Positions 45,663 to 48,016 of a stretch of 64,000 nt of DNA are shown piece by piece. Every line of letters starts with the position of its first letter. Positions within the stretch are counted from its first letter, which is position 1. The notes beneath the pieces were generated by a model. That model had not been told where the DNA came from and searched no databases. It saw nothing but the letters and a program-made list of their open reading frames with translations. Source of the stretch: Lysobacter sp. (GTDB lineage Bacteria > Pseudomonadota > Gammaproteobacteria > Xanthomonadales > Xanthomonadaceae); contig JAHCAU010000001.1 of assembly GCA_019634715.1 (NCBI GenBank), positions 124,001-188,000 on the forward strand, written 5' to 3'. The translations under genes were made by a program, and so were the position numbers.

Positions 45663-48016
<2,354 letters not shown>

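Follow-up and report, generated by a model that had tools for sequence, protein, structure and literature searches.

An intact gene for an FdhF/YdeP-family molybdo-oxidoreductase is located in the window, the 64,000-nucleotide stretch of a Lysobacter sp. contig that was analyzed here, and a single REP arm is read in frame within it (Table 1). The 785-residue open gene scores 965 bits on TIGR01701, above the curated cut-off of 582. The REP codons specify residues 659-666 (SSGLKPLL), followed by one arginine and then by the conserved LMTVRSHDQ segment, and the frame is kept throughout. The observation of an in-frame REP inside a molybdo-enzyme gene, from which the earlier note had started, is confirmed. 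According to Pfam, the C-terminal Molydop_binding domain begins at residue 666, placing the insert at its border. In the predicted structure, whose fold resembles formate dehydrogenases and related enzymes, residues 643-661 form a coil with pLDDT <50 directly before a strand at residues 666-671; the insert is predicted to sit in this low-confidence coil between the molybdopterin and C-terminal domains. The model (mean pLDDT 74, 21 sequences) serves as a guide only, since the conserved neighboring stretch 673-691 is also of low confidence.

Table 1. REP elements of the window and parts of the FdhF/YdeP gene, in window positions.
Feature	Position	Strand	Evidence
REP pair, GGGCC stem, intergenic type, same repeat family	15939..16009	.	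repeat match
REP pair, GGGCC stem, outside genes by ORF test	27244..27321	.	repeat match, ORF test
FdhF/YdeP-family molybdo-oxidoreductase gene, intact	45663..48020	+	TIGR01701, Pfam
Interdomain linker, 27 residues (641-667), holds the insert, predicted coil	47583..47663	+	orthologue comparison, predicted structure
REP arm, putative right arm of a former REPIN, encodes SSGLKPLL	47637..47662	.	repeat match, hairpin
Conserved LMTVRSHDQ segment, start of C-terminal domain	47664..47690	+	sequence, Pfam
REP pair, GGGCC stem, outside genes by ORF test	53215..53293	.	repeat match, ORF test

The element in the gene, AGCTCGGGGCTGAAGCCCCTCCTACG, matches one arm of a GTAG-type REP exactly. Its reverse is GTAGGAGGGGCTTCAGCCCCGAGCT, and GTAGGAGGGGCTTCAGCCCCG is read on the minus strand at 47641-47661, with the GTAG tag beside the palindrome and a length within the 20-40 bp of this REP type. 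By chance, the exact 26-mer would be expected ~10^-10.7 times in the window. With up to 2 mismatches allowed, the REP pattern is matched 97 times in the genome, most of these matches having a GGGCC stem. The membership in the intergenic REP family of this genome that the earlier note had claimed is borne out by this 26-base match, as is the compensatory change that keeps the hairpin: the stem of the window copy is GGGGC instead of the common GGGCC, one base pair being flipped with both sides changed. The stem pairs 47642-47646 with 47651-47655 around a TGAA loop at -10.1 kcal/mol. Unusual stability of the hairpin was considered and rejected, its energy being unexceptional for the composition (z -0.4), and the evidence is therefore provided by the repeat match and by the orthologues. 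A single arm measures ~26 bp and full pairs ~64-80 bp; the inverted pair of a REPIN is absent from the window gene, in which only one arm is found.

Orthologues were compared in a family sample of 149 genomes, 78 of which gave an FdhF match. All 11 genomes of the genus are among them, that of G089 at only 51% identity and probably representing a paralogue. Peptides derived from a REP are found at this site in G137, G061, and G013, where both arms are present as GGASAP and SG(L/P)KPL in the same frame as the window copy, and in G115, which like the window genome (G000) has the right arm alone. Inverted REP pairs are found in the orthologues of G013, G137, and G008, the last belonging to another genus. 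No recognizable REP was observed in the FdhF linkers of G151, G150, G152, and G153, and that of G149 is doubtfully REP-like. It should be noted that G151 is a close relative, 92% identical, without the insert, and that the linkers of G152 and G153 reach 28 residues without any recognizable REP. In many orthologues of other genera the linker is 11-12 residues long and shows no similarity here; over the 72 orthologues that could be placed by a looser pattern, its span, as counted there, is 12-48 residues. REP-less orthologues mostly have shorter, unrelated linkers, so that the refuting case named in the earlier note, the same residues and length in orthologues without the repeat, does not apply; this agrees with the earlier proposal that a repeat became protein sequence. 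An insertion before LMTVRSHDQ was likewise proposed, and is present, but the inserted piece is larger than the palindrome. The linker is 27 residues long, compared with 11-12 in many orthologues, and relatives show that the insert is what remains of a two-armed REPIN.

In a tree of FdhF built without the linker, the carriers are grouped with G151 inside the genus at moderate support (88/78), and the carrier label needs at least three changes. Most simply, the element would have been gained once in the genus, lost from G151, and gained separately in G008. The latter, the only carrier seen outside the genus, holds a perfect REPIN in the same linker (GCGGC stem, TTTA loop, -56 kcal/mol), which was probably acquired independently. 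Within the genus, the frame, the right-hand edge, and the stem type of the insert agree; its interior is common to G061 and G013 (27 codons, 6 base differences) and partly common to G000 and G115. Because four other species share the site and one arm is left in the window genome, the insertion is old within the genus and has decayed in the window genome.

The DNA around the REP matches was surveyed as 58 REP clusters, 4 with a GGGGC arm and 54 without. All four GGGGC-arm clusters lie inside long frames with coding-like third positions (FdhF, MetG, IcmF, GlyS); by the same frame test, an intragenic position was found for 0 of the 54 other clusters. Two candidate intragenic REPs were rejected, being upstream of a SufE-like start (L174) and of an isocitrate-lyase-like start (L199), respectively. 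A GGGCC REP at L195 1514-1535 encodes LGPEGPPT near the end of an exporter-like ORF. The three GGGCC pairs of the window are all inverted, and GGGCC REPs are also located on the flanks of a RAYT-like gene of 180 residues with a Pfam Y1_Tnp match (L177 1919-2461); no RAYT gene was found beside the GGGGC stem type in this genome. The window additionally holds REP pairs of a GCGAC stem, arranged tail to tail, at 9213-9272 and 59334-59394, a type that also occurs inside GlyS of G137. On contig C247 of G149 (9340-9601), four same-orientation REPs are placed at an exact 80-base spacing.

In the window genome, REP pairs are also in frame in MetG (VGGASAPSSSVASSKKLAAEAAPT), IcmF (VGGASAPSSVAEEQKLAAEAAPT), and GlyS (LAAKAAPTKSEGAAVVGGASAPSS). 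Based on Pfam, the MetG insert (residues 563-586) lies between Anticodon_3 (to 526) and tRNA_bind (from 621), the GlyS insert (585-608) between tRNA_synt_2f (to 579) and DALR_1 (from 640), and the IcmF insert (423-445) between MeaB (to 373) and the mutase part, where the empty site of close relatives is an 11-residue linker. Plus-oriented arms are read at codon position 0 (VGxASA) in every clear case across all four genes, and the minus-oriented arm at position 2 (LAAEAAPT) or, in FdhF, at position 1 (SGLKPLL). Part of this phase bias arises because each REP arm has a stop in one of three phases, the other two being stop-free; the rest may reflect tolerance of small residues. A "fossil" account of the intragenic position of the GGGGC type, in which only old copies survive in genes, fits MetG, GlyS, and FdhF but fails for IcmF, whose insert was found only in G000 among close relatives, implying that the GGGGC type was active later in that lineage. 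REP arms are present in the IcmF linker of G021 too. In the IcmF linker of L235 (G066) a 24-bp perfect inverted repeat is in frame (AACCGGGGTCAGAGTGCACTTTCC), and in those of L257 (G152) and L258 (G153) an 18-bp inverted repeat (AAGTGGGGTCAGAGTCAT). Elements of at least two kinds, REP arms and other inverted repeats, have thus entered this linker. Short AATCCCG-like repeats are in frame in the MetG linker of L229 (G100; NPESRTPNPGPP), and in L262 (G115), a close relative, unrelated sequence replaces the REP-bearing linker of GlyS.

The arrangement of the pair in GlyS is common to eight genomes of the genus, but its stems differ (GCGGC, GCGAC, and GCGCC, among others), and its tags are either GTAG or GTGG. 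Among the 16 stem pairs counted, standard pairing is seen in 99% of cells, and both sides have changed in four pairs; sliding the GlyS structure as a control abolishes the pairing signal. In five genomes, the in-gene arms were compared with the intergenic REPs among the matches listed, and within these they resemble the types of their own host, loop included: the summed distance of 7, against a permutation mean of 16, is the lowest of 120 arrangements. The exception is G000, in which the dominant intergenic type is GGGCC and the in-gene type GGGGC/GCGGC. Fourfold sites in the REP codons differ at 5 of 61 positions between sister pairs (11.7 expected, P ~0.015) and at 3 of 52 between distant pairs (18.3 expected), an effect that is overstated, in the distant-pair set above all, since the pairs were chosen for recognizable arms. 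Replacement or homogenization by other REPs would account for type switching and conservation together. Less expected than the rest of the result is that REP types turn over within a gene.

From the repeat identity, the frame, the orthologue pattern, the linker position, and the parallels in MetG, GlyS, and IcmF, we infer, with a probability of about 0.85, an old REPIN insertion in the FdhF linker that was tolerated, inherited by species of the genus, and partly deleted. In an ancestor within the genus, the linker that joins the molybdopterin domain of FdhF/YdeP to the C-terminal domain would have received, without loss of the frame, a REPIN of two inverted GTAG-type REPs, presumably moved by a RAYT tyrosine transposase. 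That the frame was not interrupted would be due to the absence of stops from two of the three frames of each REP arm and to a linker that accommodates additional small, polar residues. Subsequently, the insert would have been inherited by at least five species and its left arm lost in the window genome and in G115, leaving one REP hairpin, of which the remaining Leu-Leu codons appear to occupy the place of the hydrophobic residues that other orthologues have of their own before LMT. The conservation of the REP codons above synonymous sites elsewhere would most likely be the result of REP replacement or homogenization, not of a need of the enzyme, for which the insert is probably neutral. The word "domesticated" used in the earlier note fits inherited protein sequence but probably not usefulness, given that G151 is without the insert, two species have lost an arm, and 28-residue linkers exist without a REP. 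As far as can be judged from sequence comparison, tolerated inheritance fits best.

A chance palindrome in ordinary coding sequence would be compatible with the unremarkable hairpin energy, but the exact match to a multi-copy repeat, at the chance expectation given above, and its absence from most orthologues make such an origin practically negligible. The abundance of GGGCC REPs in this genome and their association with a RAYT might suggest a recent insertion of that type confined to the genome. The stem type differs, though, and the orthologues refute this history, four other species of the genus carrying the element at the same place, so that it is exceedingly improbable; the suggestion of a recent insertion tolerated by the enzyme fails in the word "recent".

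If each species had acquired the element separately, at a hot spot or in a uniquely tolerant linker, this would explain why the FdhF linker of G008 has a REPIN with a different stem and loop, and why the IcmF linker was hit by REPs in G000 and G021 and by a different inverted-repeat element in G066, G152, and G153. Within the genus, the agreement of the FdhF inserts in frame, right-hand edge, and stem type, and the interior sequence common to G061 and G013 and partly to G000 and G115, argue for a single inherited insertion, and we regard independent origins as unlikely. It is decidedly doubtful that the hairpin itself is under selection, either as an mRNA hairpin that delays the ribosome, giving the first domain time to fold before the second has emerged, or as a DNA or RNA element. 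The GlyS arms that keep their pairing by paired changes, the reduced change at fourfold sites, and the position of all four inserts of the genome between domains are consistent with such a role. Yet the in-gene arms are near the intergenic types of the host among the matches listed, loop included, for which replacement suffices as an explanation; in addition, G151 is without the insert, two species have lost one arm, and the stability of the window hairpin is ordinary for its composition.

Beyond tolerated inheritance at this locus, interdomain linkers may, as a tentative proposal toward which we remain somewhat skeptical, be lasting in-frame slots for REP/RAYT elements, the resident copy being replaced time and again by whichever REP type is current in the genome. 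If so, a protein linker would evolve in step with a selfish repeat family, representing concerted evolution inside coding sequence. The locus provides a clear example of a mobile hairpin turned into inherited protein sequence, one that extends to at least four enzymes in one genome. Orthologues with the insert, without it, and with different versions of it make both the cost or use of the linker and REP overwriting in genes directly testable.

Known systems resemble this case in part. REPINs, inverted REP pairs that with their spacer form a RAYT-linked, extragenic unit (PLoS Genet 2011, PMC3116915), share the paired unit with the orthologues and possibly also the link to a RAYT; the element here, by contrast, is read as part of a gene, and at the window site it has lost one arm. 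The Rickettsia palindromic elements (RPE) are likewise palindromic repeats that are in frame in protein genes, and orthologous genes are hit at a shared site, in some cases by different RPE groups (PMC3767692, PMC10969869). The window REP shares their in-frame position inside an ORF; unlike the 100-150 bp RPE of Rickettsia, it is a short arm, of the GTAG type, in a genome with a RAYT gene. The main text of a 2013 study (BMC Genomics 2013, PMC3733652) describes GTAG-tagged REPs within ORFs, as monomers and as dimers, with 20-30 residues encoded by dimers or groups. The targets include X. oryzae tRNA synthetases, and recB of X. campestris and of X. oryzae holds different REPs at about the same site. 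Intragenic GTAG REPs, dimers included, and tRNA synthetase targets are thus common to both; the FdhF gene, the placement between domains, and the match between in-gene and host intergenic types are absent from that main text, its supplementary gene list aside. Intragenic REPs have been known since 2013, and the window locus is a further example.
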